A stretch of 64,000 nucleotides of DNA from Bradyrhizobium sp. sBnM-33 (GTDB taxonomy: Bacteria > Pseudomonadota > Alphaproteobacteria > Rhizobiales > Xanthobacteraceae). Position numbers and translations under genes: made by a program. The stretch's first letter is position 1. Each line of letters begins with the position of its first letter. Below are positions 4,700 through 50,870 of this stretch, in pieces. A model generated the notes under the pieces. It saw nothing but the letters and a program-made list of their open reading frames with translations. It made no database searches and had not been told where the DNA came from. Where the stretch lies: positions 7,750,001 to 7,814,000 of the forward strand of contig NZ_CP136624.1 of assembly GCF_032917945.1 (NCBI RefSeq), given 5' to 3'.

Positions 4700-4763
4700 G
4701 TAGCCCGGATGGAGCCAACGGGGCGCGCATTCGCGCGACCCGTTGGCTCCATCCGGGCTACGC
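4700..4763. repeat. CCCGGAT...ATCCGGG palindrome carrying mini-element copy 1
   Basis: Host arms GTAGCCCGGAT and ATCCGGGCTACG flank a 40-base insert (4711-4750). The insert begins GGAGCCAACGG and ends CCGTTGGCTCC around a GCGCGCATTCGCGC core. Here the insert itself is a nearly perfect palindrome. Confidence 0.85.
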
Positions 4764-4766
4764 ATC

Positions 4767-5495
4767 TCAATCGCGCCCCGCCTCCCCGATCGCCTGTGCC
4801 AGCCGCGCCGGGTTGCTGAAGAACATCTCATGACTGCCGTCGCATTCGATCAGCCGGAAAAGGCCGAGCCGCTCCGACAAGCGCGGATGCCATGGCAGGC
4901 CGTGCGGCAGGGCGATGTCCTGCCTGCAATTGACATAGGACTTGCCAACCGGCAGCTCTGCCAGGGGACGCGCCAGCGCGATCTTGTCGGTGAACGTCTT
5001 ATACGGATGCAGATTGAGTTTGGCGTAGGCGGATTTCGCCAGTTCGAGATCGGCGTCGTTGATGAAGGCATCGCGCCAGATTTCGAACGGCAGCATCACG
5101 GCGTTGTTGTTGGCAGCGGCCACGGCATCGAACAGGCCGACATAGTGCGGCGGCACCATGTCGTTGAGGCACTGCCCATCCAGCGGGACAAAGGCGTTGA
5201 CGTAGACGAGGCGCTTGATCCTGTCAGTCAGACAGTCGGCGACGCCCGAGATCACCATCCCGCCGTAGGAGTGGCCGACCAGCCTGATGTCGCGGAGATT
5301 GTTCGCCTCGATGTAAGCGACGACGGACGAGATCGCCTGCTCGAGTCCTGTTTTCTCGCGATCGTCATCCTTGTTGTTGCCGGCGACTGTCGGGCAATGC
5401 ACGACGTGGCCGCTTTTGCGAAGATGTCCGGCCACCGCTTCCATTTCGGCGCCGGTGTGCCACGCGCCGTGAACAAGAACATAGATGTCTGACAT
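4767..5495 (-). CDS. Alpha/beta hydrolase (esterase family)
   Basis: A 242-residue single-domain alpha/beta hydrolase. It opens with YVLVHGAWHTGAEM, whose HG supplies the oxyanion hole. The nucleophile elbow is GHSYGG (Ser ~83), and the likely catalytic His is in DGSHEMFF near the C terminus. The arrangement resembles plant methylesterase and bacterial salicylate-esterase-like proteins. No signal peptide, so cytosolic. A paralogue at 6775-7488 shares the HGAW and GHSYGGMV blocks and the YVNAFVP/YIDAFVP strand. The AraC gene between them may regulate one or both, but that is inference. Substrate unknown. Confidence 0.87.
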   Translation of the reverse strand: MSDIYVLVHGAWHTGAEMEAVAGHLRKSGHVVHCPTVAGNNKDDDREKTGLEQAISSVVAYIEANNLRDIRLVGHSYGGMVISGVADCLTDRIKRLVYVNAFVPLDGQCLNDMVPPHYVGLFDAVAAANNNAVMLPFEIWRDAFINDADLELAKSAYAKLNLHPYKTFTDKIALARPLAELPVGKSYVNCRQDIALPHGLPWHPRLSERLGLFRLIECDGSHEMFFSNPARLAQAIGEAGRD

Positions 5496-5595
5496 TCCGT
5501 CTCCCCCTGATTTTCTGAAAGTCAGACATTGATGGGGACGATTATTCCCGGATGGCCGGATTCGGCCACCGCCATCGCCGGATTGTGCCAGGCCT

Positions 5596-6561
5596 TTAGC
5601 GCAGCTGCCGGAAGGCGCCCGGCGTCATGCCGAGGTATCTCCGGCATTGGCGGATGAAGTGAGATGGATCGGAAAAACCGACCCGCAGCCCGATCCCGCC
5701 GACGCCGATGCGATCGAACCGCGGCTCGCTCAGCATCCGGCGCGCCGCCGCCATGCGGCAATCGTTGAGCAGCCCGCTGAACGTCAGGCCTGCCTTGTTG
5801 AGACAGCGATGCAGGGTTCGTTCCGAGACACGCAGATGTGCGGCGATGGTCGCAGCCGTCAATCCCGGTTCGGCGTAGCGCAGCCGGATGGCCCGACCGA
5901 TCTGGTCCAACAGCTTCGCCGCATCGCGCTGCTCGGAGGGCGCGGCCGGAATCTCGCTTCCGAACCCAAGCGCCAGAAGCGCTCCGAGCTGATCGGTCAA
6001 AACCTGCGCAGGCAGCGGCCGCTCGATCGCCAGTTGCGGCATCAACTGGCGCGCGAATGTGCTGAGCGCCGCGCCCCAACCGGCGCGCCCGTCAATACGC
6101 TGCCCGACGCGCCGCTCCGGATCGGTGACCCAGGATTCGACCCACGCGATCGGCAGTTCCAGTGACAGCGTGTTTGAAGTTACCGGAAAGTTGAACTCGT
6201 AGCAGCGCCGGGAATCCAGCAGCACGAGATCACCGGGCTGCAGGCGCGACGCGTGGCCGTCCTGCATGGCGGTCCAGTCATTGTCAGTCTTGCACAGCAG
6301 GTAATAGTAGTTCGATGCACTGCGCGCGAGGCTGCCTTTCCTGCGGTAGACGTGCTGCGCCGAGCCCTCGACGCGGTTGATGCCGATCGTGTCGAGTTGC
6401 CCGCGCTGAACGGAGCAGTCGAAGCCCGACCGCACCGGCGTCGTGATATCCATTTCGAGAAAACATTCGCAGACGGCGCCGATCCAATAGTCCAGGCGCC
6501 GTTCCGGCTCGACCAAGGCGGTCGACCATGTCTCGATGACAGAAGTCGTTCTGGACGCCAT
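5596..6561 (-). CDS. AraC family transcriptional regulator
   Basis: A 321-residue regulator. The N-terminal ~200 residues are an AraC-binding-like sensor domain (YYYLLCKTDNDW, LQPGDLVLLDSRRCYEF). The C-terminal ~105 residues hold the two helix-turn-helix units (TAATIAAHLRVSERTLHRCL and GGIGLRVGFSDPSHFIRQCR), ending RRYLGMTPGAFRQLR. The start at 6561 (MASRTTSVIETW) is preceded by GGAGGGCAGGCT, a good ribosome site. A longer frame reaching 6762 would read through a palindromic repeat and is unlikely. It lies between two paralogous alpha/beta hydrolase genes on the same strand, the obvious candidate targets. Inducer unknown. Confidence 0.92.
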   Translation of the reverse strand: MASRTTSVIETWSTALVEPERRLDYWIGAVCECFLEMDITTPVRSGFDCSVQRGQLDTIGINRVEGSAQHVYRRKGSLARSASNYYYLLCKTDNDWTAMQDGHASRLQPGDLVLLDSRRCYEFNFPVTSNTLSLELPIAWVESWVTDPERRVGQRIDGRAGWGAALSTFARQLMPQLAIERPLPAQVLTDQLGALLALGFGSEIPAAPSEQRDAAKLLDQIGRAIRLRYAEPGLTAATIAAHLRVSERTLHRCLNKAGLTFSGLLNDCRMAAARRMLSEPRFDRIGVGGIGLRVGFSDPSHFIRQCRRYLGMTPGAFRQLR

Positions 6562-6649
6562 AGCCTGCCCTCCGCGATCGGTTTCGACCACCGGATTGCC
6601 AGCTTGTTGGGCGCGTGGCGGAGAGTCAATCCGTTGGAGACTACATCCC

Positions 6650-6772
6650 ATAGCCCGGATGGAGCCAACGGGTCGCGCGAACGCGCGCCCGATGACAGGC
6701 TCCGCGCAATCCGGGACTATCGAGCCCATGGCGCGGAGAGCCCGGGTTGCGCTGCGCTCCACCCGGGCTTCG
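6650..6772. repeat. CCCGGAT palindrome with mini-element copy 2, plus a second CCCGGG palindrome
   Basis: TAGCCCGGAT (6651-6660) is followed by a 43-base insert at 6661-6703 (GGAGCCAACGGGTCGCGCG ... CCCGATGACAGGCTCC), then GCGCAATCCGGGACT. A separate inverted repeat, GCCCGGGTTGCGC ... GCTCCACCCGGGC, follows at 6738-6768. The region separates the AraC gene from the second hydrolase. Confidence 0.8.
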
Positions 6773-6774
6773 GA

Positions 6775-7488
6775 CTACGCAACGATCTTCTGCAGCAGCG
6801 CCATCAGCGCTTCCGGCGCGGTGACATTCGGCGAATGGCTGGCGTCGATCTCGTAATAGCTCCAGGCGGGATCACCCTTTGTCATCCTGGCGAACGGCCC
6901 AAAAGTGTCGGCCGGCGTGATGCGGGTGGCGTAGATATAGCTGCGCGGCAGGGTCAGCGCGCCGCCCTGCAGCTTGAGCCTGGTCTCGAAACACTTGATC
7001 GGCATGTTGACGCGGCGCGCGCTGAGCCATTCGACGTCCGCAGGCGATGTATCCGGCGGCGTCGGGTTTGGCGGCACGCGCCAGCCATCGCCGGTCTTGG
7101 CCAACTCCTCCATCCGCGCCCGCCCCGCTTCGTTCAGATCGAGCAGCGACTGCCCGTCCTGCGGCACGAAGGCGTCGATATAGATGAGCTGCTTGACCTT
7201 GTCGCGGGCGCGGTCGGCGACGCCGGTCGCGACCATGCCGCCATAGCTGTGGCCGATCAGCACGAATTCGCGCAGGTCTTCATACTCGATGACGTGCAAA
7301 ACGTCTTCGATATGCGAATTGAGATCGATCCCCGGATGCGCCAGATGCGCGCGCTCGCCGAGACCGGTGTAGGTCGGCGTGATCAGGCGATGCCCGGCGG
7401 CCTGCATCAGCGGATGCATTTTCTTCCAGGCCCAACCCGCGGACCACGCGCCGTGACAGACGAGGAGGGTTTTCGAAGTTGCGCCCAT
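6775..7488 (-). CDS. Alpha/beta hydrolase, paralogue of the 4767-5495 gene
   Basis: A 237-residue alpha/beta hydrolase. The oxyanion-hole motif LLVCHGAWSAGWAW leads the fold, GHSYGGMV is the nucleophile elbow (Ser ~84), and the C-terminal EIDASHSPNV supplies the probable catalytic His. It is close in length and layout to the first hydrolase, but the middle lid region differs (WRVPPNPTPPDTSPADVEW), so the substrates probably differ. The start at 7488 (MGATSKTLLVCHG) puts the first strand near the N terminus; the frame opens at 7506. It lies upstream of the AraC gene on the same strand. Substrate unknown. Confidence 0.85.
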   Translation of the reverse strand: MGATSKTLLVCHGAWSAGWAWKKMHPLMQAAGHRLITPTYTGLGERAHLAHPGIDLNSHIEDVLHVIEYEDLREFVLIGHSYGGMVATGVADRARDKVKQLIYIDAFVPQDGQSLLDLNEAGRARMEELAKTGDGWRVPPNPTPPDTSPADVEWLSARRVNMPIKCFETRLKLQGGALTLPRSYIYATRITPADTFGPFARMTKGDPAWSYYEIDASHSPNVTAPEALMALLQKIVA

Positions 7489-7580
7489 CGGCCCGTTTCC
7501 CACCAAGTTATTGTTGAAGACTTGGATTGCGATAGTACCTGTCCATCGCGTCGTGTAAACGTCACCGCAACATTCAACGT

Positions 7581-7675
7581 CATTCCGGGGCGCATCGAAG
7601 ATGCGAACCCGGAATCTCGAGATTCTCAGGTGCGCAATTGCGCACCATAGTTCGCTTCGCGCCCCGGAATGACGG
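7581..7675. repeat. CGTCATTCCGGGG palindromic repeat, long form
   Basis: GTCATTCCGGGGCGCATCGA ... TTCGCGCCCCGGAATGACGG forms an inverted repeat with a ~60-base central section that contains its own small palindromes (TCTCGAGA, GCGCAATTGCGC). The right arm ends inside the ATG at 7669, which argues against that codon as the start of the next gene. Confidence 0.8.
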
Positions 7676-7689
7676 AGGGAATATTAAGA

Positions 7690-8433
7690 GTGGACTTCGC
7701 CACCTACGCCATCCTGCTCGCCGGCGCGCTCGCGGGCGGCTTTGTCTCCGGACTTTCCGGTTTCGGCACGGCGCTGATGGCGCTGGGGATCTGGCTTTAC
7801 ATCTTGCCGCCGGCCATTGCGGTGCCGCTGGTCCTGATCTGCTCGGTGAGTTCGCAGATCTCGACGCTGCCATCGATGTGGAAAGTTCTCGACTTCAAGC
7901 TGGCGTGGCCGTTCGTGGCCGGCGGTCTTGCCGGCATGCCGATCGGGGCGCTGCTGGTCGCGCGCGCCGACCCGCAAAACTTCAAGCTCAGCGTCGGCAT
8001 GATGCTGCTGGTATTTCCTACCGCACTCTATTTCATCCGCAAGCCGATGGCCTTCCGCTTCGGCGGCCGGCCGGCAGACGCAGCCGTCGGATTTGCCGGC
8101 GGCATCCTCGGCGGCCTCGCCGGCCTGTCGGGCCCGCTGCCGACCCTGTGGGCCAGCATCCGCGGCTGGACCAAGGACCAGCGCCGCGGCCTCTTCCAGA
8201 TCTTCAACGGCAGCGTGCTCGGCGCCGCGCTCATCCTGCAGATCGCCAGCGGCTTCGTTAAATGGGATGTGTTCTGGCTGGCGATGCTGGCGCTGCCCGG
8301 CACGCTGATCGGCGCCCGTCTTGGCATGCGCACCTATCAAGCCCTGAATGACCGAAACTTCTACGACGTCGTGCTGGCTCTGCTATTTCTGTCGGGAGTT
8401 GGATTGGTGTGGAGCAGCATTGCTCCGAGCTGA
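7690..8433 (+). CDS. TauE/SafE family sulfite/organosulfonate exporter-like membrane protein
   Basis: A hydrophobic ~247-residue protein with about eight membrane helices and the two-fold internal layout of the TauE/SafE family (FVSGLSGFGTALMALGIW in the first half, FAGGILGGLAGLSGPLPTLW in the second). Members are proposed to move sulfite, sulfoacetate or other sulfur or carbon anions across the inner membrane. I prefer the GTG at 7690 because GGAGGG (7673-7678) is well placed for it. The ATG at 7669 lies in a palindromic repeat and has no ribosome site of its own. No sulfur gene is adjacent, so the substrate is unknown. Confidence 0.85.
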   Translation: MDFATYAILLAGALAGGFVSGLSGFGTALMALGIWLYILPPAIAVPLVLICSVSSQISTLPSMWKVLDFKLAWPFVAGGLAGMPIGALLVARADPQNFKLSVGMMLLVFPTALYFIRKPMAFRFGGRPADAAVGFAGGILGGLAGLSGPLPTLWASIRGWTKDQRRGLFQIFNGSVLGAALILQIASGFVKWDVFWLAMLALPGTLIGARLGMRTYQALNDRNFYDVVLALLFLSGVGLVWSSIAPS

Positions 8434-8506
8434 ACGGCGCATAGCCGCCATGTGCTCCGAGTAGATTGCTGTACGCTGACCGGCAAAGCGGCTAACCAAT
8501 CGCGTC

Positions 8507-9439
8507 ATGAGCTCCCCTGCTTCGCGCGAGCGCCTCGGCCTGTTGCTGGGCTTCATCGGCATGGTGATCTTCGGCGGCACGCTGCCGGCGACGCGGATCG
8601 CAGTCGCGGAAATTGATCCGATTGCACTGACCGCGCTGCGCACCGCTATCGCAGGGCTTTGCTCGCTGGCGCTCCTTCTCGTGTTGCGCCGGCCGCTGCC
8701 GCCCCGCGCGCTATGGCTGCAACTCGTGATCGCCATGCTTTGCGTCGCGATCCTGTTTCCACTGTTGATGTCGATGGGCATGCAGAGGGTCGACGCCTCG
8801 CATGGCGGCGTGGTGCTGGGCGTACTGCCGATCGCCACCGCGCTCGTCGCCGTTGCCATTACTCATGAGCGGCCGCGGCCGCTGTTCTGGATTGCTTCCG
8901 TGGCCGGCGCCGCGTTGGTGATCGCATTCGCATTGCGGCAAGGCGGCGGCGCGCTGGTCGCCGGTGATTTATTCCTGTTCGCATCGGTCGCCGTCGCCGC
9001 GATCGGCTACGCATTCTCCGGCCGGCTCACCTCGCAAATGCCGGGCTGGGAGGTCATAAGCTGGATCCTGGTTATTGCGCTGCCGCTGTCGATTCCGGCA
9101 GCCGTGCTGACCATGCCCGCCGATATCACCCACATCGCCCTGAAACCCTGGCTCGGGCTGCTTTACGTCGCGCTGTTCTCGCAATGGATCGGGTTCTTCG
9201 CGTGGAATGCAGGGCTGGCGATGGGCGGCATCGCGCGGGTCTCGCAGATCCAGTTGCTGCAACCCTTCGTCACCTTTGCGCTGGCCGCCTTCTTCAACGA
9301 CGAGACCATCACGCTGCAGATCCTGCTGTTCGCTGCCGCCGTCGTAGTGACGGTCGCCATTTCGACGCGCACCCGGGCCAGAACGGCTCCCTCGCCGCCG
9401 CAGCAAAATCGCGAGCCGTCTCAATTGGCGGCGTCCTGA
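8507..9439 (+). CDS. EamA-family (DMT superfamily) transporter
   Basis: A 310-residue inner-membrane protein with ten expected helices in two EamA repeats. The first repeat begins LGLLLGFIGMVIFGGTLPAT and the second AGDLFLFASVAVAAIGYAFS. The C terminus (RTRARTAPSPPQQNREP) is short and basic. DMT proteins export or import small metabolites, often amino acids; nothing here shows which. The 3' end overlaps the convergent gene at 9421-9816 by 19 bases. Confidence 0.88.
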   Translation: MSSPASRERLGLLLGFIGMVIFGGTLPATRIAVAEIDPIALTALRTAIAGLCSLALLLVLRRPLPPRALWLQLVIAMLCVAILFPLLMSMGMQRVDASHGGVVLGVLPIATALVAVAITHERPRPLFWIASVAGAALVIAFALRQGGGALVAGDLFLFASVAVAAIGYAFSGRLTSQMPGWEVISWILVIALPLSIPAAVLTMPADITHIALKPWLGLLYVALFSQWIGFFAWNAGLAMGGIARVSQIQLLQPFVTFALAAFFNDETITLQILLFAAAVVVTVAISTRTRARTAPSPPQQNREPSQLAAS

Positions 9440-9816
9440 TCGTTCAGCACCGGATGATCCGCCATCAGTTCCGCCCTGGTCTTTTCCGAATTGATGGCCC
9501 TAAGTAGCACGCGCGCGGTTTTCAGATGATCGACCTTCACGCATAACCTGATGATCTGGCTCACCGAGACGTCACGCATGGCGTCGTCGGAGATCTTCAT
9601 GGCGACTTCGAGCGCGCATTTGATCGCTGCCTGATATCGCGTGGCGTCAATGGCCTGGTCTTTCTCGGCATGGCGGCCGCCGGCTGCCATCTTTTCCGCG
9701 ATGGCCTCGGCCGAGACGCAAATCTCGCGAATCCTTTGCGCCGCCTCGATATCGCCTGCGGGCTGAACGTCGATTTCCCAGACCTCCGGCGGCCGATCCT
9801 TTCGAAACCAGCGCAT
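9421..9816 (-). CDS. Hypothetical cytosolic helical protein
   Basis: A 131-residue protein of unknown function starting MRWFRKDRPPEVWEIDVQPA. It is mostly amphipathic helix (AAQRIREICVSAEAIAEKMA, YQAAIKCALEVAMKISDDAM), with no signal peptide or membrane segment. The start at 9816 is favoured; the frame reaches 9846. Its end overlaps the convergent EamA gene by 19 bases, and codon use is normal for the region. No family was recognised. Confidence 0.65.
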   Translation of the reverse strand: MRWFRKDRPPEVWEIDVQPAGDIEAAQRIREICVSAEAIAEKMAAGGRHAEKDQAIDATRYQAAIKCALEVAMKISDDAMRDVSVSQIIRLCVKVDHLKTARVLLRAINSEKTRAELMADHPVLNDQDAAN

Positions 9817-9882
9817 CGTGCAAGCCCTCTCGATGCCGGAAAACATATTCCGACATCGATCGGGTTCGCAACAATACGGCTC

Positions 9883-11685
9883 TCACTCCGCCGCCGAAAT
9901 GCGGCTGAACTCGGTGGCCTGCAGCTCGAACAGCCCGCGATAGATGCCGCCGGGCCTGGCGGTCAGCGCCGCGTGCGTTCCCTGCTCGACGATCTCGCCG
10001 CGGTCGAAAACCAGGATGCGGTCGAGGCTGCGCACCGTCGACAGCCGGTGCGCGATTACGATCGAGGTCCGCCCTTTCATCAGCCGCTCCATGGCCTGCT
10101 GGATCAGGCCCTCTGACTCCGAATCAAGGCTCGAGGTTGCCTCGTCCAGGATCAGCACCGGTGCGTCCGCCAGGAACGCGCGCGCCAGCGCGACGCGCTG
10201 CCGCTCGCCGCCCGACAGCTTGACGCCGCGCTCGCCGACCAGCGTGCCGTAGCCTTTCGGCAGCCGCAGGATGAAATCGTGCGCATTGGCGAGCCGCGCC
10301 GCCTGCTCGATCGCCGCCATGCTGGCGCCCGGCCGGCCATAGGCGATGTTCTCGGCCAGCGTGCGGTGAAACAGGATCGGCTCCTGCTGCACGATCGCGA
10401 TCTGGCTGCGCAGCGATTGCTGCGTGGCTTTCGCGATATCCTGACCGTCGATCAGGACCTTTCCGCCGCTGATATCGTAGAGCCGCTGCACCAGTTTGAC
10501 GAAAGTGGTTTTGCCGGAACCGGAGCGGCCGACCAGGCCGACCCGCTCGCCGGCGCGGATCTCGACCGACAATCCGTCATACAGCGGCGCGCGGTGGCCG
10601 CCGTAATGGAACGTCACGTCGTCGAACACAATGCGGCCGCCCTGGATGTCGATCGGCTTTGCATCCGGCGCATCGGCGATGCCGATCGGCTCGTCATGGA
10701 TCGCGACCAGCTCCTCCATGTCGTTGACCGAACGCTGCAGGTTGTTGATGTGCATGCCGACGTCACGCAGATAGGCATGAATGATGTAGTAACTGGTCAG
10801 CACGTAGGTGACGTCGCCCGGCGTGGCGCGGCCGGCGATCCACAACAGGATCGCCCCGCCGATCACCGATCCGCGGAAGCACAACAACACCGCGAGTTGC
10901 GCCGTCGAAGTGTAGTTGTAACGGTACCAGGTCCGCCGCACGCGCGTGCGCCAGCGTCCGACGACACCGGCCAGCCGCGCATCCTCGCGCGCTTCCGCGC
11001 CGAAGGACTTTACCACCGCGTTGCAGGTCAAGGCATCCGCCAGCGTGCCGCCGACTTTGGTGTCCCAGGCGTTGGAGACGCGCGCGGCGGGTGCGATGTA
11101 GTTCACCGAGAACGCCATCGTCATCGAGACATAGATCACGGTGCCGACCGCGATGACCGCGCCGAGCACCGGCCAGTGCAGCCCGAGCAGGATCATCGAG
11201 CCGACCAGCACCAGTAGCGACGGCAGCAGCGCCATCAAGATGGTATCGTTGAGCAGATCGAGCGCCCACATCCCGCGCGTGATCTTGCGTACGGTGGAGC
11301 CGGCAAACGAGTTGGCGTGCCAGTCGGTCGAAAAGCGCTGTACGCGCGCGAAAGCGTCGCGCGATACGTCGGACATGGTCTTCAGCGTGAACGGCACGAT
11401 GGCCTGCAGCCCGGCCAGGCGCAGGACCATCGATATGAGTCCGAGCGCGACGATCCCGCCGAAGGCTGTGAACGCAGCCTGTCGCGCGCCCGGGTCGGAA
11501 GTGCCCAGCGTCAGCGCATCGACCAGCCGGCCGGAGAAGATCGGCATGAACAGGTCGGCCGCGGTTGCTCCCAGCAGGCCGCCGGTCACGACGGCGGCGC
11601 GGCCGGGCTGCTGCAGCCAGTGGCGGAACACGAACGGGATCACCACGCGTATCGCCGCGGGACGTTTGTCTCTTGGAACGGTCAT
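9883..11685 (-). CDS. ABC exporter, fused permease and ATPase (MsbA/multidrug type)
   Basis: A 600-residue half-transporter. Residues ~1-330 form the six-helix exporter membrane domain and ~345-600 the nucleotide-binding domain. The ATPase has Walker A GRSGSGKTT, Q-loop IVQQEPILF, signature LSGGERQR, Walker B VLILDEATSSLD and H-loop IAHRLSTV, all canonical, so it should work as a homodimer. Family members export lipids, drugs or peptides. I start at 11685 (MTVPRDKRPAAIRVV); the upstream extension is Arg/Pro-rich and atypical. A 23-residue reading frame and a plausible promoter lie upstream on the same strand. Substrate unknown. Confidence 0.9.
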   Translation of the reverse strand: MTVPRDKRPAAIRVVIPFVFRHWLQQPGRAAVVTGGLLGATAADLFMPIFSGRLVDALTLGTSDPGARQAAFTAFGGIVALGLISMVLRLAGLQAIVPFTLKTMSDVSRDAFARVQRFSTDWHANSFAGSTVRKITRGMWALDLLNDTILMALLPSLLVLVGSMILLGLHWPVLGAVIAVGTVIYVSMTMAFSVNYIAPAARVSNAWDTKVGGTLADALTCNAVVKSFGAEAREDARLAGVVGRWRTRVRRTWYRYNYTSTAQLAVLLCFRGSVIGGAILLWIAGRATPGDVTYVLTSYYIIHAYLRDVGMHINNLQRSVNDMEELVAIHDEPIGIADAPDAKPIDIQGGRIVFDDVTFHYGGHRAPLYDGLSVEIRAGERVGLVGRSGSGKTTFVKLVQRLYDISGGKVLIDGQDIAKATQQSLRSQIAIVQQEPILFHRTLAENIAYGRPGASMAAIEQAARLANAHDFILRLPKGYGTLVGERGVKLSGGERQRVALARAFLADAPVLILDEATSSLDSESEGLIQQAMERLMKGRTSIVIAHRLSTVRSLDRILVFDRGEIVEQGTHAALTARPGGIYRGLFELQATEFSRISAAE

Positions 11686-11847
11686 GGCATCATCCGGCTG
11701 CGCGAAAGGCGCATGCCGGCTCCATCTGGGTTTGACGCGTGGGCCGCCTCGGGCCGAACGCATGCGTCGTTGAAAACTGTCGTTAAGTCGTTGGGAAGTT
11801 TGGAAAGATCGGGCGTGAGGCCCGATCAGGGCCGGCGGAGATCGCGC

Positions 11848-11919
11848 TCAGCGACGCGACCGAAAAACCAGCACGAGCATCGGACACGAGGGCGCGATCT
11901 GCGAATACATCGATATCAT
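11848..11919 (-). CDS. Candidate 23-residue leader or small protein
   Basis: The frame reads MISMYSQIAPSCPMLV, then LVFRSRR and stop. GGGGAG lies seven bases before the ATG, a strong ribosome site, and a promoter-like pair lies just upstream. It ends about 160 bases before the ABC exporter start, on the same strand, so it could be a leader peptide or an independent small protein with a short hydrophobic stretch. Too short for homology by eye; support is position, ribosome site and promoter only. Confidence 0.45.
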   Translation of the reverse strand: MISMYSQIAPSCPMLVLVFRSRR

Positions 11920-11953
11920 GCAAATCTCCCCGGTTCGAGCGACAATGCGCACC

Positions 11954-11981
11954 TTATAAATGCATCGCGGGTGATTTGCAA
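11954..11981 (-). promoter_or_regulatory. Probable sigma-70 promoter for the small ORF and ABC exporter
   Basis: On the minus strand TTGCAA (11976-11981) and TTATAA (11954-11959) are separated by 16 bases. Initiation would fall near 11946, giving a leader of about 27 bases before the ATG at 11919. Confidence 0.45.
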
Positions 11982-12017
11982 CATGACAAGGACGTGAACA
12001 GCGTTGTCACATCGCTT

Positions 12018-13607
12018 TTAATGCGCGTCGCCGCCAAGCACCGCCGCGGACGGCTTTTTCAGAACCATCACCAGCAGGCTCAGGACGAGATAGAACACGG
12101 CCAGCATGAAGAAGACGTCGCCATAACCCATGACCACCGCCTGGCGGTGCACGATCTGCGACAATTGTTTCATCGCCATCAGCGCGGCATCGCCCATGCC
12201 CTGCATGCGCTGGGTGAGCATGTTGAGTGTCTCGACCGCGGTGGCGTTGCCCCAGGTAACGCTGTCATGCAGGCGTGAGATGTGCAGGTCGGTACGCTCG
12301 TTCAGCGCCTGGTTGATGACGGCGAGCCCCACCGCACCGCCGAGGTTGCGCGTCAGGTTGAACAGGCCGGAGGCGTTCTTCACGCGCTCGGGCGCCAGCG
12401 TTCCGAGCGCGGTGGTGTTGGTCGGCACTATCACCAGCATCATGCCGACCCCGCGCAGGATCTGCGGAATCAGCAATTCGTAGAAATCATAATCCTTGGT
12501 GATCCAGGTCATCTGGTAGGAGCCGAGCGCGAACAGGACGAGGCCGATCGCGATCAGGTAGCGCACGTCGTACTTCACCATCAGCCGCCCGACGATCGGC
12601 GCGGTGAGGAACATGGCAAGGCCCGAGATGAACATGGTCTCGCCGATCATCAGCGCGCTGTAGCCGCGCACTTCGGCCAGATAGCGCGGATACAGGTAGG
12701 TCAGGCCGTAAAGACCGATGCCGACGCAGAATGAGATCAGGCAGCCTATCGCGAAATTGCGGTCGCTGAAGGTCCTGATGTCGACGATCGGCTCCTTGAC
12801 GCTGAGCACGCGCCAGAAAAAGGCAATCGCCGAAACCGCACAGATCGCTGCACAGATCGCCACCGAGGTGTCTTCCAGCCATTGCGATTGCGGGCCCTCT
12901 TCCAGCACGTATTCGAGCGTGCCGAGAAAGCTCGCCATAAACAACAGTCCCCACCAGTCGAAATGTTCCAGCAGCGCGAAGTCCGGCTTGTCGAAATCGA
13001 CCAGCGCGAGCACACCGACGGTGATACCGATGCCGGGAACGATGTTGATGAAGAACAGCCAGTGCCAGGACATCATGCCGGTAATGTAGCCGCCGACTGT
13101 CGGCCCGATGGTCGGCGCCAGCGTCGCGACCAGCCCGATGATCGGGCCGACGATGTGGAATTTCGAACGCGGAAAGACCGTGTAGGCGGATGCGAACACG
13201 GTGGGGATCATGCCGGCGCCGAGAAACCCCTGGATCGCGCGCCAGATGATCATCTGCTCGATGGTCGAGGCAAAGCCGCAGAAGAAGCTCGCGATGGTGA
13301 AGCCGGCGGCGGAGATCGCAAACAGCAGGCGGGTGCCGAGCGCGCGCGACAGGAATCCGGACAGCGGAATCGCGATCACCTCGGCGATTAGGTACGAGGT
13401 CTGCACCCACGACACTTCGCTTGAGCTTGCCGAAAGTCCGGCCTGGATCTCCGCCAGCGACGCCGAGACGACTTGGATATCCAGGATCGACATGAACATC
13501 CCGAACACCATGATCAGAAACGCAAACATCCGTCGCGGCGGAATGCGCTCGGACGCGTCGGTCGCGGCCTTCATCATCGAGGGCGATGCGGTGGTGGCGT
13601 CAGCCAT
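12018..13607 (-). CDS. DHA2-family MFS drug efflux transporter (EmrB-like)
   Basis: A 529-residue inner-membrane antiporter with about fourteen helices. It carries the MFS motif-C-like AGMIPTVFASAYTVFPRSKF region and the DHA2 N-terminal helix FGMFMSILDIQVVSASLAEI, with its conserved Asp. EmrB proteins pump hydrophobic drugs or acids using the proton gradient. The HlyD-like adaptor lies directly upstream on the same strand (stop at 13656, 48 bases before this start), so the two form an EmrAB-type operon. It needs a TolC-like outer-membrane partner, which is not in the window. Probably repressed by the divergent TetR protein. Confidence 0.93.
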   Translation of the reverse strand: MADATTASPSMMKAATDASERIPPRRMFAFLIMVFGMFMSILDIQVVSASLAEIQAGLSASSSEVSWVQTSYLIAEVIAIPLSGFLSRALGTRLLFAISAAGFTIASFFCGFASTIEQMIIWRAIQGFLGAGMIPTVFASAYTVFPRSKFHIVGPIIGLVATLAPTIGPTVGGYITGMMSWHWLFFINIVPGIGITVGVLALVDFDKPDFALLEHFDWWGLLFMASFLGTLEYVLEEGPQSQWLEDTSVAICAAICAVSAIAFFWRVLSVKEPIVDIRTFSDRNFAIGCLISFCVGIGLYGLTYLYPRYLAEVRGYSALMIGETMFISGLAMFLTAPIVGRLMVKYDVRYLIAIGLVLFALGSYQMTWITKDYDFYELLIPQILRGVGMMLVIVPTNTTALGTLAPERVKNASGLFNLTRNLGGAVGLAVINQALNERTDLHISRLHDSVTWGNATAVETLNMLTQRMQGMGDAALMAMKQLSQIVHRQAVVMGYGDVFFMLAVFYLVLSLLVMVLKKPSAAVLGGDAH

Positions 13608-13655
13608 GATCAGCTCGGAACCGGCGCGGGGCTTTCGCCCCGGGCACTAAAGAAA

Positions 13656-30787: not shown

Positions 30788-30945
30788 GTCATTGCGAGGA
30801 GCGACAGCGACGAAGCAATCCATCTATCCCCGTGCGGAGAGGTGGATTGCTTCGCTTCGCTCGCAATGACGGCTTCACAACTGCTGTCTTAGTTCGTCTG
30901 ACGTTCAAGACGTGGATGGCCGGGACAAGCCCGGCCATGACGCTT
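30788..30945. repeat. CGTCATTGCGAG palindrome followed by a CGTCATGGCCGGG-type copy
   Basis: CGTCATTGCGAGGAGCGACA ... GAAGCAATCCATC ... GGTGGATTGCTTCGCTTCGC ... CTCGCAATGACGG (30788-30872) is a long inverted repeat. AAGACGTGGATGGCCGGGAC ... GGCCATGACG (30908-30943) is a second family. The right arm of the first is an empty reference for the mini-element copy at 50742-50781. Confidence 0.85.
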
Positions 30946-38140: not shown

Positions 38141-38266
38141 CCGTAGGGTGGGCAAAGCGATAGCGTGCCCACCATTCACGTTGCGATCCGTTCATGGATG
38201 GTGGGCACGCGGAGCCTGTCATCGGGCGCGCATTCGCGCGACCCGGTGGCTTTGCCCACCCTACGC
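38141..38266. repeat. Inverted pair of GGTGGGCA repeats; the right one holds mini-element copy 3
   Basis: The left copy reads CGTAGGGTGGGCAAAGCGAT then AGCGTGCCCACCAT. The right copy is its reverse complement except that a 40-base insert (38211-38250: GGAGCCTGTCATCGGGCG ... CGACCCGGTGGC) replaces the few central bases. The pair thus shows an empty and a filled host site side by side. Confidence 0.88.
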
Positions 38267-41155: not shown

Positions 41156-41216
41156 GGCAGCATTGCAAGTTCCCGCAAAGCCGCGTTGACACCTCCGCCC
41201 AACCGCCTACATTAGT

Positions 41217-41344: not shown

Positions 41345-41346
41345 GG

Positions 41347-42548: not shown

Positions 42549-42599
42549 GGAGGATGAACGCGCGCACTCTCCGCCCGTCGTCCCTGCGAAGCGCGCCTC

Positions 42600-42712
42600 G
42601 CACTCCGCTGTCATCGCCTGGCTTGACCGGGCGACCCAGTACGCCGCGGCCTGTCGGGTTGATCACAGCCGTCCCGGCGTACTGGATCCCCGCCTTCGCG
42701 GGGATGACAGGA
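42600..42712. repeat. GTACTGGATCCCCGCC palindromic repeat inside the thi operon
   Basis: CGCCTGGCTTGACCGGGCG with CCCAGTACGCCGCGG, then GGCGTACTGGATCCCCGCCT and GCGGGGATGACAG. CCCCGCCTTCGCGGGG is a strong hairpin. A copy lies at 48305-48345. It is located between thiS and thiG, so it is transcribed with the operon. Confidence 0.8.
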
Positions 42713-42729
42713 TCATTTGAGGAAACACC

Positions 42730-43518: not shown

Positions 43519-44113
43519 TCGATTCTACCCCGTGGTCGACAGCGTCGCCTGGGTGGCGCGGCTGGCGCTGCTCGGCGCCGGCACCATCCAGCTGCGCGCC
43601 AAGGATCTCGACGACGCCGAGGCGCTGCAGATCGTGACCGACGCCCTTGAAGTCATCAAGGGCACCGATGCCAAGCTCGTCGTCAACGATTACTGGCGCG
43701 CGGCGATCGTCGCCGGTGCAAAACACCTGCATCTCGGCCAGGAAGACCTCGTCGGCGCCGATCTCAACGAAATCCGCAAAGCCGGATTGACGCTCGGCAT
43801 CTCCACCCATGACGACGAAGAACTGGCGACTGCGCTCGCCGCCAGGCCCGACTACATCGCGCTCGGTCCGATCTTCCCGACCACGCTGAAATCGATGCGT
43901 TTTGCGCCGCAGGGCATTCCAAAGATCACCGAATGGAAAAAGCGCATCGGCAATATCCCGCTGGTCGCGATCGGCGGCATCAAGTTCGAACAATCAGCCG
44001 AGATCTACGCCGCCGGCGCCGACTCCATCGCCGTCGTCAGCGACGTCACCCAGAGCGCCGATCCCGACGCGCGGGTGCGGCAATGGCTGGGCCAGGGCGC
44101 GGAGACAGCGTGA
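43505..44113 (+). CDS. thiE: Thiamine-phosphate synthase ThiE
   Basis: A 202-residue TIM-barrel enzyme joining hydroxymethylpyrimidine diphosphate and thiazole phosphate to thiamine phosphate. It shows [72 protein letters not shown] and [12 protein letters not shown]. The start at 43505 ([14 protein letters not shown]) lies within the 3' end of thiG. ThiD, which makes the pyrimidine diphosphate, is not in the window. Confidence 0.94.
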
Positions 44114-44136
44114 TGGATTTGCGAAGCAACCACAGC

Positions 44137-44412
44137 CGTCATTGCGAGCGAAGCGAAGCAATCCATTGGCACTGCGCAATCGGTGACAATGGATTGCTTC
44201 GTCGCTTCGCTCCTCGCAATGACGGAGGAAACTCGCGATCGCGAAGGAGACATCAGCGCTCGCGGAGGCACCCCCACCCCCGACCCTCCCTCGCAAGCGG
44301 GAGAGGGGGCGCAGCGAGCGCTTGGTCAACCCGTCCCGTCTACGCAGGAAGGAGCGCAGCGCGCCCTTGTTACCCTCTCCCGCTTGCGGGGGAGGGTGGC
44401 GCGCGTCAGCGC
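44137..44412. repeat. CGTCATTGCGAG palindrome and a CCCTCTCCCGC palindrome between thiE and thiC
   Basis: CGTCATTGCGAGCGAAGCGA ... GAAGCAATCC ... GGATTGCTTCGTCGCTTCGC ... CTCGCAATGACGG spans 44137-44225. A second inverted repeat (CCTCCCTCGCAAGCGGGAGA ... CCCTCTCCCGCTTGCGGGGG) spans 44280-44400, with an inner GCAGCGAGCGC/GCAGCGCGC section. Together they put about 390 bases of hairpins between thiE and thiC. Confidence 0.82.
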
Positions 44413-44480
44413 GCGACGGGTGGGGCTCGCGCCACAAGTTTCGCTACCGGATGGATCCGCCGTGCGGCCGTCCGGAATGA

Positions 44481-46403
<1,923 letters not shown>

Positions 46404-46427
46404 GGCTGCGCACTCACCTAGACCGCA

Positions 46428-46826
46428 ATGACCAACAATCTGACCGGTGTCTGGGACGGCACCTATGTTCAGCCGCGCGTTGGAATGGTCACGTTTCTGG
46501 CGACGCTTATCGAGACTGGTGGCGCGCTCGGAGGAAACGTGACCGAACCCTGCATCACGCCCGGTTGCCCGTTGAGCATCCACAACGCTTCGATTGCGGG
46601 TCATCGATCCGGCAGCGCGGTTTCATTCGTCAAGCGTTACGAGCCGCCCGGCTACGGCTATGACAAGGTCACTTATGAAGGCGTGGTCAATGCTGACGCC
46701 ACGGAAATCGATGGGCGCTGGCGGCTGCCAGGCACTGGGTGGTCTGGAACATTTCTGATGGTTCGCTCGACCAAGCCTGCACAATCGACCGCAACCGAAG
46801 AACGGACCAAGGAGCCGACACGTTAG
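46428..46826 (+). CDS. Hypothetical beta-rich protein
   Basis: A 132-residue protein of unknown function starting MTNNLTGVWDGTYVQPRVGM. The NLTGVWDGTY opening, SIHNASIAGHRSGSAVSFVK and the later EIDGRWRLPGTGWSGTFLMV strands suggest a small lipocalin- or streptavidin-like barrel (alternating strands ending W-S-G-T-F). That is inference. Two Cys lie close together (EPCITPGCPLS). No signal peptide. It begins 24 bases after thiC but is probably unrelated to thiamine. Confidence 0.7.
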   Translation: MTNNLTGVWDGTYVQPRVGMVTFLATLIETGGALGGNVTEPCITPGCPLSIHNASIAGHRSGSAVSFVKRYEPPGYGYDKVTYEGVVNADATEIDGRWRLPGTGWSGTFLMVRSTKPAQSTATEERTKEPTR

Positions 46827-47220
46827 CATGCGTAGCCCGGATGAGGCGACATCCGGAGTTCAAACCATCCCGCATATCGCTACGCTCATGCGGGCTACGG
46901 CCCTGAGCTGGCTGCGTCGTTCCCCGCACATAAGCGAAACCTCGATACATGCCCGCTACGGATCCCACCAACAACGAAGAGCGGTGGCTGTCGACGTCCC
47001 TGCGTTAGAGAAACGAGAAACCACGAGGCCGCGCCGACGCGCCTATCTGCCTGCTGTTGAGCGTTTACTTCAGGATGTAACAAAGCGTCATCAAAACCTT
47101 TCAGTCCCCCATTAACCTTTCATTAACCATACGCGTCCACCCTTCTCTACGGCAGGGGGCCGTTGATTCCTGATGCTTCAGCTCCGCGTTTCGGAGCTAG
47201 CGTTGAGTCGGGAGGTGTTG
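46827..47220. other. Intergenic region with a GTAGCCCGGATGAGG repeat
   Basis: CGTAGCCCGGATGAGGCGAC, then ATCCGGAGTTC and CTCATGCGGGCTACG (46832-46905), is a compact palindromic repeat of the same family as the hosts at 4700 and 6650 but without the mini-element. The rest (46906-47220) has no convincing gene; ATTAACCTTTCATTAACC before 47130 could be promoter-like. Confidence 0.6.
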
Positions 47221-47505
47221 ATGCCCCGGGAGTACCTTGGTGACGTGTACATTGGCGCGGCGTGCGACCGCGCGAGCGAGATTCCGCTGCCGGATTCTCC
47301 GGCCCTTTCACCCCACCAGATCGTGCCGATGCTGATCGGCTCCACCGTCGAGGCGATCGAGCGCGAGCTCGTGCTGCAGACGCTGGCGCGCTGCCACGGC
47401 AATCGCACTCATGCCGCGCGCGTGCTCGGACTTTCGGTGCGCACGATGCGCAACAAGATCCGGCAGTATGCGACTGATGGGGCCGACATTCCCGCGCACA
47501 GCTAG
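47221..47505 (+). CDS. Orphan Fis-type HTH protein, like the C terminus of FlbD
   Basis: A 94-residue protein. The N-terminal ~40 residues are unlike any domain I know (MPREYLGDVYIGAACDRASE). Residues ~40-88 (STVEAIERELVLQTLARCHG, NRTHAARVLGLSVRTMRNKI) match the Fis-type DNA-binding domain found at the end of NtrC-class activators, closest by eye to flagellar FlbD. The receiver and AAA+ domains are absent. It may bind DNA as a nucleoid-type or anti-activator protein. GGGAGGT precedes the ATG at 47221; the frame extends to 47173. Confidence 0.85.
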   Translation: MPREYLGDVYIGAACDRASEIPLPDSPALSPHQIVPMLIGSTVEAIERELVLQTLARCHGNRTHAARVLGLSVRTMRNKIRQYATDGADIPAHS

Positions 47506-47804
47506 GTCGAACAGAGCGTAGCGTCAGCAAAGCGGACCTGTCTCGCCGCAGCTCGAAGAGCGAAGGCGGAAGCGGGCGCACCGTCATGAGCACGGCTGAA
47601 TTGGTGGGCACGGCGCTTTGCGCCTTTGCCCACCCTTGTATTGGGCTGCGGACTGATTTGTTTCGCGCGCAAGCGCAATCTCGCTTGCGCGCGTGCGACA
47701 AACTGGCACGACGGGCAAATCAGCAAAAACCTGTCCAGTCCCTCTCGCAAAAATATTCCGCTTAACTTCGAGAGCAAATCATCGGCATAACTCCGCCCGT
47801 CTCA

Positions 47805-48160
47805 CGGCGAATGAGGGGCGTCGGCCATCGTCACGAACGCGCGGTGAGATGCGATGGACGCGGAAGGCGCAAGACGTAGGCGCACAAAGCGTACGGCGAA
47901 GTCGTGTGGTTCGGGCGCCGCGGTGCTGGCGTTAAGCTCTTGAGAAGCAAACTTCTCAGGGGCGACGGAGGCAAGAAAGCCGTTCTCCGGGAAGAGCTCG
48001 AAGTAGCCGTAAAGCCATTGCGCAGGGAAGGCCGGGATGCTCCCGCTGTACCTGTATGCTCGTGTGCGCGCTTCCTATGCTCACCTGCACACGAGACCGC
48101 GGGTGCAGCAAGCACCCGGTCTTCCCTGCGCCCTCTGATTGGAGAGGGTGGGAGGTTGGT
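47805..48160. repeat. Strongly structured element, candidate multicopy or RNA element
   Basis: The 3' third holds nested hairpins: GCGCAGGGAAG (48020-48030) pairs with CTTCCCTGCGC (48121-48131). Inside it CTCGTGTGC (48059-48067) pairs with GCACACGAG (48087-48095), and CGGGTGC (48100-48106) with GCACCCG (48112-48118). The upstream part has GGACGCGGAAGGCGCAAGAC and CTTGAGAAGCAAACTTCTCA (a hairpin). From memory, similar sequence is frequent in Bradyrhizobium genomes and gives rise to spurious annotated proteins. Its nature is unknown. Confidence 0.5.
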
Positions 48161-48220
48161 AGCAAAGCTCGGGCACAGTGTGTCGCGAGAATGCCGCCTC
48201 ACATTCGCTTGTCATCGTCC

Positions 48221-48260
48221 GCCAACGGGTCGCGCGAATGCGCGCCCGATGACAGGCTCC
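48221..48260. repeat. Mini-element copy 4 inside an ATCGTCCGCC palindrome
   Basis: GCCAACGGGTCGCGCGAATG, then CGCGCCCGATGACAGGCTCC. Host arms ATCGTCCGCC and GGCGGACGAT flank it (48214-48270). Confidence 0.8.
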
Positions 48261-48606
48261 GGCGGACGATCCAGTATTCCAGAGACGCCAGCGATTGAAC
48301 CGAGAAGCCGCGGCGTACTGGATCCCCGCCTTCGCGGGGATGACAGTGGTGGGCGTCGCTATCTCCCCGTCATTGCGAGCGCAGCGAAGCAATCCATCTC
48401 GCGGCAAAACGGAAGCATGGATTGCTGCGCTTCGCTCGCAATGACGTGGATAGGCGCGGCGTACTGGTCGACCCGGCGATGACAGCGGAGGATTCAGGGA
48501 CGACGGGGCAAGACCAACGATCCGTCGTCATAATGCGCCGATCGGAAATCCAAATGACGGGGAAAGAGTCCGGCTTTGTCGATTTTTCATTCTACTTCAG
48601 ATAGCA

Positions 48607-49299
48607 ATGACTTATTTTCGACGCAGCGAAAGCCAAGAGAAGAACGGATATCGCGGTATCGCCAACGAGATAAAAACACGGCAGGGAAGGATAAAAGTGG
48701 GTGAACTTCTGGGCTCTATCGTTTTTTCTTTGATTGTAATCGCACTAATCGCCGGCGCATGGACCTGGATTTCGACGCTGTTCAGAAAAGGGGTCATGGC
48801 GCTGCTCGGCTTCGATGCGGTCTGCGTCCAGCAGTTCGAAACCGTGCTGCTCTACCGGAACGGGCGTTTTGAAAGAGCCCTGACACCCGGCCGGCACCGC
48901 ATCCGCGCCGGCAGCCGCCAACTGGCGCGGATCGATTTGCGGCCCGAGGTGTTACGGTTCACGCAAGGCGCAGTCTCCGCGGACCGCTTTGCGGTCAACC
49001 TCGTCTATGTCGCGCGCATCCAGATCGTCGACCCCCGGGCCGCTTTCGAAAGCACGCAGAATTACCGGGACGAGGTCTGCATACGCCTGCAGTCGGTCGT
49101 GAAGGCGGTGTGCAGCCGAAAGCCGCGCCTCGAAATTCAGATGGACCACCAGAGCTTTGGCAACAGCGTCCAGAAGGCCGCCAGCCAGGTGCTTCGCTCG
49201 ATCGGTTGCGAATGCCTGACGTTCGAGCTGCTGCAGGTCGATTCCGCGGGGCCGATCGCGGAATTGGAGAACAGGCGCATGGGATTTGCCGCGCATTAG
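48607..49299 (+). CDS. SPFH/band-7-like membrane protein
   Basis: A 230-residue protein. Residues ~1-40 are polar, followed by a single membrane helix (LGSIVFSLIVIALIAGAWTW). An SPFH-like domain follows (~70-225: VQQFETVLLYRNGRFERALT, PGRHRIRAGSRQLARIDLRP, VSADRFAVNLVYVARIQIVD). Slipin-type proteins scaffold membranes or proteases, and members often pair with NfeD, which is not present here. It is shorter than typical slipins (~260) and lacks the long C-terminal coiled coil. The first ~150 bases are AT-richer than the region, and no ribosome site precedes the ATG, so the start is uncertain. Confidence 0.7.
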   Translation: MTYFRRSESQEKNGYRGIANEIKTRQGRIKVGELLGSIVFSLIVIALIAGAWTWISTLFRKGVMALLGFDAVCVQQFETVLLYRNGRFERALTPGRHRIRAGSRQLARIDLRPEVLRFTQGAVSADRFAVNLVYVARIQIVDPRAAFESTQNYRDEVCIRLQSVVKAVCSRKPRLEIQMDHQSFGNSVQKAASQVLRSIGCECLTFELLQVDSAGPIAELENRRMGFAAH

Positions 49300-49553
49300 C
49301 TTGTCGCGGCTCGATCGCGCGCCGGCAGTGCCGTTCGGCCGCCAGGGCACCGGCCGGCAGATCGCCTATGCTGCGCCGCTGCCGATTTCGAATGAATCAT
49401 CCTACGCCGGCGCGCATTCGCTGTTGCGCGACGCCGGCCGTGCGGCCGGGACCGCGCGCAGCTCGTCTACGCAAGCCGAATGGCTCGGGGATTGCGAGAA
49501 TTGGCGGCAATGCCCAACTCTTCCCTATCATGATTGATCCGGACATCCCCGAC

Positions 49554-50654
49554 ATGAGCCAGACCAAACTGTTCGAGCCCCTCAAGCTTGGCCCGATTGC
49601 GCTGCCCAACCGCCTTGTGATGGCGCCGCTGACCCGCAACCGCGCGGTGCCTCCGGGCATGGTGCCGAGCCCGCTTGCGATCGACTATTATGGCCAGCGC
49701 GCCTCCGCCGGATTGCTCATCACCGAAGCCAGCCAGGTTTCGCAGCAGGGTCAGGGCTATCAGGATACGCCGGGCATCTATTCGAAAGAGCAGGTCGAGG
49801 GCTGGCGCAAGGTCACCGATCGCGTGCATGAAAAAGGCGGGCGCATCTTCATCCAGATCTGGCATGTCGGCCGTATCTCGCACACCACGCTGCAGCCCGG
49901 CGGCGGCAAGCCGGTGGCGCCGTCGGCGATCCGCGCCAAGGGCAAGACGTTTGTGGGCGGCACCTTCACCGAGATATCCGAACCGCGTGCGCTGGAGCTG
50001 TCGGAAATTCCAGGGATCATCGACGACTTCAAGCGCGGCACCGAGAACGCGCTGGCCGCCGGTTTTGACGGCGTCGAGATCCACGGCGCCAACGGTTACC
50101 TGCTCGATCAATTTGCAAAAGACGGCACCAACAAGCGCACCGATGCCTACGGCGGATCGATCGAGAACCGCGCAAAGCTGATGCTGGAAGTGTCGCAGGC
50201 GGTGGCCGCGATTGCCGGCCCCGAGCGCACCGGCATCCGCATTTCACCGGTGACGCCCGCCAACGATGTGTCCGATTCCAATCCACAGCCGCTGTTCGAT
50301 CACATCGTGGATGGACTCGACGCGCTGAAGCTGAGCTACATTCACGTCATCGAAGGCGCCACCGGCGGGCCGCGCGATATCGCGCCGTTCGATTACGCGT
50401 CCTTGCGTAAGCGCTTTGGCGGAGCCTATGTCGCCAACAACGGCTACGACTTCGACCTCGCGACAAAAGTGCTCGAGGCCGGCGCCGCCGACCTGATCGC
50501 GTTCGGCAAGCCATTCATCTCGAACCCCGATCTGGTCGAGCGATTGAAGAAGGGCGCGCCCTTGAATGAATGGGACAAGGCGACGTTCTATGGCGGCGGC
50601 GCGAAGGGATATACGGATTATCCGACGCTGGCGGCGGCGCAAGCGGCGGAGTGA
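49554..50654 (+). CDS. Old yellow enzyme family alkene reductase (NemA-like)
   Basis: A 366-residue FMN TIM-barrel reductase. It reduces activated C=C bonds, quinones or nitro compounds with NAD(P)H. Landmarks: FEPLKLGPIALPNRLVMAPL, GLLITEASQVSQQGQGY, FIQIWHVGRISHTTLQPGG, GFDGVEIHGANGYLLDQFAK with the His/Asn substrate pair (HGAN), YGGSIENRAKLMLEV and LIAFGKPFISNPDLVERL. I choose the ATG at 49554 (MSQTKLFEPLKLG); 49530 adds eight residues. Monocistronic. It may act in detoxification. Confidence 0.93.
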   Translation: MSQTKLFEPLKLGPIALPNRLVMAPLTRNRAVPPGMVPSPLAIDYYGQRASAGLLITEASQVSQQGQGYQDTPGIYSKEQVEGWRKVTDRVHEKGGRIFIQIWHVGRISHTTLQPGGGKPVAPSAIRAKGKTFVGGTFTEISEPRALELSEIPGIIDDFKRGTENALAAGFDGVEIHGANGYLLDQFAKDGTNKRTDAYGGSIENRAKLMLEVSQAVAAIAGPERTGIRISPVTPANDVSDSNPQPLFDHIVDGLDALKLSYIHVIEGATGGPRDIAPFDYASLRKRFGGAYVANNGYDFDLATKVLEAGAADLIAFGKPFISNPDLVERLKKGAPLNEWDKATFYGGGAKGYTDYPTLAAAQAAE

Positions 50655-50675
50655 GGCTGCTAAGCTTTCTCTCCG

Positions 50676-50870
50676 TCATTGCGAGGAGCGAAGCGACGAA
50701 GCAATCCATGCTTCAGCAAGCGGCGAGATGGATTGCTTCGCGGAGCCTGTCATCGGGCGGCGCTTCGCGCCGACCCGTTGGCTCGCAATGACAAAAGAAA
50801 AAGGCCGGGATCGCTCCCGGCCTTTGGTTTTGTTCGTGGATGCCCAGGTCAAGCCCGGCCATGACATCTA
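50676..50870. repeat. CGTCATTGCGAG palindrome containing mini-element copy 5, then GTGGATGCCCAGG copy
   Basis: CGTCATTGCGAGGAGCGAAG ... CAATCCATG ... ATGGATTGCTTCGC is interrupted at 50742-50781 by GGAGCCTGTCATCGGGCGGC ... CGACCCGTTGG and resumes CTCGCAATGAC. GGCCGGGATCGCTCCCGGCC and a GTGGATGCCC...GGCCATGACAT element follow, ending at the glpV stop; one of these hairpins is the likely glp operon terminator. Confidence 0.85.

Follow-up and report, generated by a model that had tools for sequence, protein, structure and literature searches.

Among bacterial repeats related to the repetitive extragenic palindromic (REP) sequences, REPINs are small hairpin repeats that are mobilised in trans by a single-copy transposase, RAYT (TnpA-REP). 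The subject of this work is a nested palindromic unit of about 38 nt, here called X, which was noticed in a stretch of 64,000 nucleotides of Bradyrhizobium sp. sBnM-33 ("the window"; assembly GCF_032917945.1, contig NZ_CP136624.1, positions 7,750,001 to 7,814,000), where five copies sit within larger palindromic host repeats. The source genome is a single contig of 9.18 Mb.

A preliminary description of the window knew of no named family with this behaviour. Palindromes nested in one another are, however, on record for other bacteria and for Volvox organelles (PMC3733652, PMC2670323), so that this kind of nesting is, as such, already known. According to the accessible parts of the respective papers, other palindromes of A. 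variabilis, T. roseum and H. neapolitanus harbour GTAG-15 dimers, GTAG-23 elements and CGTC-1 dimers as insertions, and Bradyrhizobium GTAG-14 repeats have long complementary loops (Di Nocera et al. 2013, PMC3733652); Br-REP1 and Br-REP2 are described in B. japonicum (Hahn et al. 2016, PMC5082802); short palindromes inserted in other palindromes form nested structures in the organelle DNA of Volvox carteri (PMC2670323); the GC clusters of yeast mitochondrial DNA are mobile hairpins of about 40 nt, with gain and loss between strains and merging of palindromic clusters (PMC4478555); and insertion sequence (IS) elements of the IS3, IS110, IS4, IS256 and IS5 families insert at preferred points inside REP palindromes (PMC1525189). 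No description of X or of tip-replacing nesting in Bradyrhizobium was found in the open-access literature, as judged by titles and the beginnings of abstracts. As far as this literature tells, the new features of X are its fixed ends, its host range, the existence of sites with and without it, and the insertion of X in X.

The observations reported here suggest, with slightly more weight for than against, that X, a hairpin of about 38 nt whose ends are fixed, is mobile but non-autonomous, being inserted into hairpin tips by a factor acting in trans. X runs GGAGCCTGTCATCGGG...ACCCGTTG, and its 38 nt sequence, GGAGCCTGTCATCGGGCGCGCATTCGCGCGACCCGTTG, was found as an identical string in 81 of 227 pooled copies. 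The two ends differ, with GGAGCC on one side and GTTG on the other. The preliminary description proposed GGCTCC for the right end, but X includes no more than its first G; since the rest is host sequence, X is asymmetric. GGAG formed the left end of 147 of the 160 distinct copies taken from other genomes, and the right end read TTGGC or GTGGC in 141. The apex stem was fully paired in 214 of the 227 copies, although its sequence differs (CGCGC, CGGCGC, CGCGCC, CGGCC, CGGGC, CGGTGC); when apex arms were exchanged between stem types, pairing was obtained in 25 of 134 combinations. Because the search pattern behind the 227 copies fixes the outer bases, only the apex was free to vary in this comparison. 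Copies found with a covariance model include some in which the outer stem is altered on both sides (CATCCGG...CCGG, e.g. locus L429). X contains a TGTC tag, a variant of CGTC, and a stem-loop; GGAGCC precedes the tag and a CCA tail is absent. At 38 nt the unit carries no gene and has no coding capacity.

All five copies reported for the window are present. Of the two flanks attributed to them, TGTCATCGGG and AACGGGT, the TGTCATCGGG arm is lacking in copy 1 (4711-4745, plus strand; covariance model E=3.1e-4), a symmetrised variant that has AACGGG on both arms. It lies in a family B (GTAGCCCGGATG) palindrome at 4700-4763, whose 39-nt arms are 87% complementary, and its symmetry is as expected from fold-back copying of one arm. 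Each of the other four copies has an empty hairpin next to it, the second member of a pair. Copy 2 (6666-6703, minus strand) is in a family B host with halves starting at 6650 (left) and 6704 (right), and is paired with an empty family B'' hairpin with the tip TGC (6741-6769, plus). Copy 3 (38211-38248, plus) is in a family C host (GGTGGGCACGC / CTTTGCCCACCCTAC), paired with a family C hairpin with the tip GATA (38143-38173, plus). Copy 4 (48223-48260, minus) is in a family D host (TGTCATCGTCCGC / GGCGGACGATCCAGTA), paired with a family D hairpin with the tip TTC (48316-48345, plus), and copy 5 (50742-50780, plus), which has the apex variant GGCGC-TTC-GCGCC, is in a family A host (GGATTGCTTCGC / GCTCGCAATGAC) paired with a family A' hairpin (50675-50707, plus). 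Elsewhere in the window, empty hosts of family A (30844-30871, plus) and family D (42680-42709, plus) both have the tip TTC.

In the whole genome X was found with an exact core 67 times (36 forward, 31 reverse), whereas the same pattern read backwards was not found. A covariance model built from 30 variants gave at least 145 matches at a cut-off of E<=0.1, a floor because 150 of 15,527 first-look candidates were scored. These matches comprise the 67 exact-core copies, the symmetrised copy 1 and 77 more, the weakest of which (locus L476, E=0.026) may be false. No clear replichores were discernible by eye in the regional GC skew of the genome. Within the genus X was present in 111 of 146 genomes, at 0 to 67 copies per genome; in a family-wide draw that included Bradyrhizobium it was present in 68 of 296 genomes, representing 15 of 47 genera. 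At least 119 stretches with X come from named genomes, and the 80 listed among them were from Bradyrhizobium (73), Rhodopseudomonas (3) and metagenome-assembled genomes with wider names (4).

Hosts were classified with a library of 16 half-site pairs (nine families with subtypes, 80% identity) that was drawn up by eye from copies already seen, and is therefore descriptive, not blind. All model matches except the window's symmetrised copy were classed. Both host halves were recognised at 122 of these 144 copies, one half or two mismatched halves at 14, and 8 were left unclassified. Of the 67 exact copies, 64 had both halves, 2 had a left half alone and 1 was a chimera between two host families; of the 77 further copies, 58 had both halves, 11 had one and 8 had none. 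Out of 20,000 randomly drawn positions 6000 were scored on the plus strand, a control that gives only the false-positive rate of the library: both halves were never found and one half 41 times. In other genomes (n=160) both halves were present at 134 copies, one at 16 and none at 10, and six of these ten (L118, L246, L269, L301, L327, L347), judged by eye, lie in palindromic hosts that the library does not contain or are cases of X in X. No clear case of a free-standing X was seen among the 144 and 160 copies (8 and 10 unclassified). Copies of X are more frequent at palindrome centres than elsewhere, and the preliminary description's reading of a separate unit nested in palindrome tips is supported; in one type of host the position is off-centre (see below).

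In total nine host families were recognised, which also have X-free members. Over 800 kb sampled evenly from the genome, 23 paired family A hosts had a short tip (18), an X-like insert (4) or another insert (1), and 12 paired family C hosts had a short tip (2), a small extra palindrome (7), X (2) or another insert (1). The orientation of X in its host was constant. The library fitted in this orientation at 64 of the 67 exact copies and 134 of the 160 copies from other genomes, and in the reverse orientation at 0/67 and 0/160; this test covered these 227 copies. If X is read as TGTCAT, the GTAG or GTCA-type end of the host is on the right. In agreement with the earlier claim that the insert takes the place of a few central bases, X replaces a host tip of 3-4 nt, and the tips of empty hosts read TTC, TGC, TAC, TCC, TTT or TATC, between C and G. 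The junction sequence common to the host families is little more than C-TNC-G, so a target defined by matching surrounding sequence, as for IS110-like elements, was not found. At one locus of this genome (L048 9893) X stands between the left half of a family E host and the right half of a family C host, which suggests recombination through X. The same sequence, GATGGGGTGGACGGCCCCCGAACGGCATCGATG, comes after three X-bearing family A hosts (L042, L043 5110, L060), and may be the end of an insertion sequence with the family A repeat as its target.

The mobility of X would follow from the corresponding sites in relatives. These were represented by one genome per species, so the differences lie between species and not between strains. 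At the site of copy 5, 26 of 30 loci were compared, our own included. A family A pair was present in 8 of the other 25, the rest having other repeats or none. X occupied the right hairpin of the pair in L143 and the left one in L135, and was absent from the pair in L137, L142, L147, L150, L153 and L154. The comparison is firm for L137, L142, L143 and L150, which carry the window's spacer AGCAAG, and of these only L143 has X. A different insert was seen in the left hairpin of L142 and L153. At a second site (C1:1025241 of this genome; 30 loci compared, 12 with anchors, own included) this genome carries X in the left hairpin, genome G120 (L218) carries it in the right one, and G110 (L215) has no X in either, with an alignable spacer in all three; L229 (G024), L221 and L227 have family A pairs without X and with other spacers. 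At the site of copy 2, an alignable pair without X was found in L179 and a family B pair without X in L172. Taken together, there are three host pairs where relatives have no X or have it in the other hairpin; host pairs without the insert, which the preliminary description had suggested looking for, thus do occur in related genomes. The sites 4711, 48223 and C1:1024229 of this genome were uninformative, because anchored relatives mostly lacked the whole host or had other repeats. Family B pairs without X in L172 and L177 (site 4711), which have a different spacer, and the X that L146 carries in a family A hairpin instead (site 48223) were not counted.

X was also found nested in itself. In locus L301 a family A host contains an X whose tip has been replaced by another X, the ends of the two agreeing but for one base (GGCG instead of GGAG in the inner unit), and in our own genome the X of L471 carries a further palindrome after TGTCATC. 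These hosts contain other palindromic inserts as well. A second nested mini-palindrome (TTCCGCCTTCGCTCGTTGAGCTACGGCGGACAAGTC-like) is at the tip of family C and D hosts in five places (L063 14212, L044 10031, L039 7640, L037 9758, L057 19568), in one orientation in all five, and an insert of the type TTCCGCC...GGCGGACAAGTC occurs in the tip of C and D hosts. A third insert, CC(A/T)GTGCGCAATTGCGCACAAG, is in family D tips (L085 8557, L005 876); a GGTGCGCAATTGCGCACC core is found also between Br-REP1-like and Br-REP2-like palindromes; and a fourth, CTGCGACAAACGCGAAGCGTTTGCGCAAG with close variants, occupies a side bulge of the family A' hairpin (L142, L153, L227; L094 7608). The tips of Br-REP2 at loci of this genome vary, many being still self-complementary (e.g. 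ATGCTTCGCATC, ACACTTCGTGTC, GTGCTTCGCACC), and look as if they had been rewritten.

The preliminary description had named REP/TnpA-Y1-like (RAYT) action as a possible agent. The only match to PF01797 in the genome is a RAYT-like gene (L001 1435-1971), which is flanked by family B repeats without X, not by X itself. The neighbouring open reading frame (L001 7-1017) presumably resembles an IS110-family transposase. RAYT homologues were sought in 146 genomes by PF01797 and by the genome's own RAYT protein; the copy-number comparison uses the latter, a single query at E<=1e-8, with some draft genomes in the set. X copy number was unrelated to RAYT (rho 0.03, P=0.73, 146 genomes), with a median of 4 copies in the 98 genomes with a homologue and 2 in the 48 without (Mann-Whitney P=0.24), and genomes without a homologue had up to 56 copies. 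RAYT/Y1 is therefore not supported as the agent. An autonomous parent, or a long X carrying a gene, was not present among 271 left ends in the collected sequence (a search for unaltered left ends only): the right part of X was near all 271, with an altered right end in two. The whole genome has 111 left ends of X; of the 100 listed, 99 coincide with model matches, the remaining one being the outer end of the L471 copy. Since RAYT homologues do not track X and no gene-carrying X was seen, we infer an enzyme, probably other than the genome's RAYT, that would act in trans on X.

These properties set X apart from the systems described above. Judged from the accessible part of PMC3733652, hosts A-D of X look like GTAG/CGTC REPs (B resembling GTAG-3, C GTAG-14, A and D CGTC, as assigned from text descriptions), and X itself has a TGTC tag, a stem and a short loop; it differs from these repeats in that it is not clearly free-standing, has fixed ends outside the stem, replaces the tip in nine recognised host families, has no CCA tail, occurs nested in itself, and is present or absent at relatives' sites. 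Like REPINs X is a small hairpin repeat, but it has no GTAG tag beside the stem, is not a REP pair and does not follow RAYT in copy number. It shares the palindrome-within-palindrome nesting of the Volvox sequences, which are organellar and for which the available text of PMC2670323 describes neither a fixed junction nor empty orthologous sites. From what could be seen of PMC4478555, yeast GC clusters are comparable as mobile hairpins of about 40 nt that are gained and lost. The REP-targeting IS elements also insert inside REP palindromes; in the accessible part of PMC1525189 they are full transposons with genes and are tied to the REPs of given species, whereas X has no gene and many hosts. 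Miniature inverted-repeat transposable elements are non-coding and mobilised in trans; X, at 38 nt, has no gene, and its mobility would follow from the sites in relatives. Unlike them, X has no target-site duplication at the compared sites, no terminal inverted repeats matching a larger transposon, and no long version among the 271 left ends.

The self-nesting, the single orientation, the differences among relatives and the ends that stay fixed across nine host families all fit a mobile unit inserted at hairpin tips. X would enter the apex of pre-existing REP-type DNA hairpins in one orientation and replace their tip of 3-4 nt, which is usually TNC flanked by C and G. The insertion would act on hairpins that are extruded or single-stranded, such as those of the lagging strand, and an enzyme supplied in trans would recognise the ends of X and cut the tip at either side. 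Within a single host family, some of the spread may be due to whole units of host and X being moved or converted. A more far-reaching proposal, which we put forward tentatively and would give clearly less than an even chance, is that what X targets is a shape, namely the triloop of extruded DNA hairpins, with host sequence playing little part. One system may then serve X and at least three other mini-hairpins that apparently replace the same TTC or TC type of site, and as each insert brings its own tip, hairpins would grow by repeated insertion, that of X into X included.

The guidance by structure that the preliminary description had suggested is no more than plausible. The hosts share little sequence at the junction, and the folds predicted for modelled empty hosts of families B and C have TTC as their triloop. 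In the modelled empty A host TTC is a triloop in the minimum-energy fold, whereas the centroid leaves the tip open. Local palindromy was positive at X sites (51% vs 25%), as was the stem score, with medians of 3.5 and 3.0 and a score >=6 in 24/67 vs 100/1526.

Several observations weigh against insertion at hairpin tips. The fold of the empty A host is no better than that of shuffled sequences (z 0.44, 136 of 200). By duplex energy, X sites could not be told apart from random or cross-family pairs, and in the cross-fold test at -10 kcal X sites scored 52%, GCTNCGC sites in general 47% and random ones 32%, so that the generic hairpin tests are split, two being positive and two not separating X sites from like background. 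In the GAAAACGC host repeat X lies off centre (four copies, at loci L302, L314, L324 and L333); five empty forms in this genome read CCAC-TTC-GCTNGAAAACGC, and by our reading X is there at the 3' edge of an 11-nt loop. X has no terminal inverted repeat beyond the palindrome itself, the compared sites of relatives show no target duplication (the tip is replaced), and no enzyme for X was found. Four of the eight family A pairs at the copy 5 site have a different spacer and may not be orthologous, and the reading of gain or loss at the sites depends on parsimony and on the X-in-X case.

The main rival explanation dispenses with a transposase. A polymerase stalled at one tip would jump to a hairpin with a similar GC-TTC-GC tip, copy X and return, the tip being rewritten, not cut and pasted. 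GCTNCGC-like tips are common to the hosts, predicted folds pair GGAGCC of X with G plus the right arm in hosts of families A, B and C, the GGCG of the inner X in L301 fits its host arm, and copy 1 is symmetrised; moreover, the apex stems of X and Br-REP2 vary and yet stay largely complementary, a mark of fold-back copying. Such template switching explains the variable complementary apexes and the GGAGCC pairing, but not why the ends are constant over nine host families; in D, F and the GAAAACGC repeat, which are among the nine, identity at the left junction shrinks to a single C. We consider it rather unlikely, though it is the most probable of the rivals.

Alternatively, X may have entered each host family on only one or a few occasions in the distant past, spreading afterwards in composite units of host and X, via RAYT or gene conversion. 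In this genome interior variants are partly sorted by host, the GTTC apex occurring among the listed copies in B and C hosts and one E/C chimera and not in A hosts, and family B repeats flank the RAYT gene. However, the GTTC apex does occur in A hosts of other genomes, X differs between pairs with alignable spacers, X is found in X, RAYT is unrelated to X copy number, and CGTC-type repeats have no link to a transposase in the accessible part of PMC3733652 (Table 1). These points make the explanation improbable. A still less probable reading takes X for an ordinary variant of the loop in REP hairpins, retained for a function in RNA or DNA (as terminator or mRNA stabiliser) and not mobile. REPs are mostly intergenic, and the long complementary loops of Bradyrhizobium GTAG-14 repeats are described as loop variants in the available text of Di Nocera et al. 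(PMC3733652). A single unit with constant ends in unlike hosts and inside itself, present or absent at comparable sites, already contradicts this as a full explanation; X could have a function alongside its mobility.

The origin, spread and diversification of REP-like repeats is an old open question. The exact ends of X, its occupied and empty sites and the order of nesting can be read from sequence in many genomes, which makes the mechanism, cut-and-insert at the tip versus template switching, directly testable. A tip-specific insertion enzyme, if it exists, would be a useful probe of where DNA hairpins form in cells.

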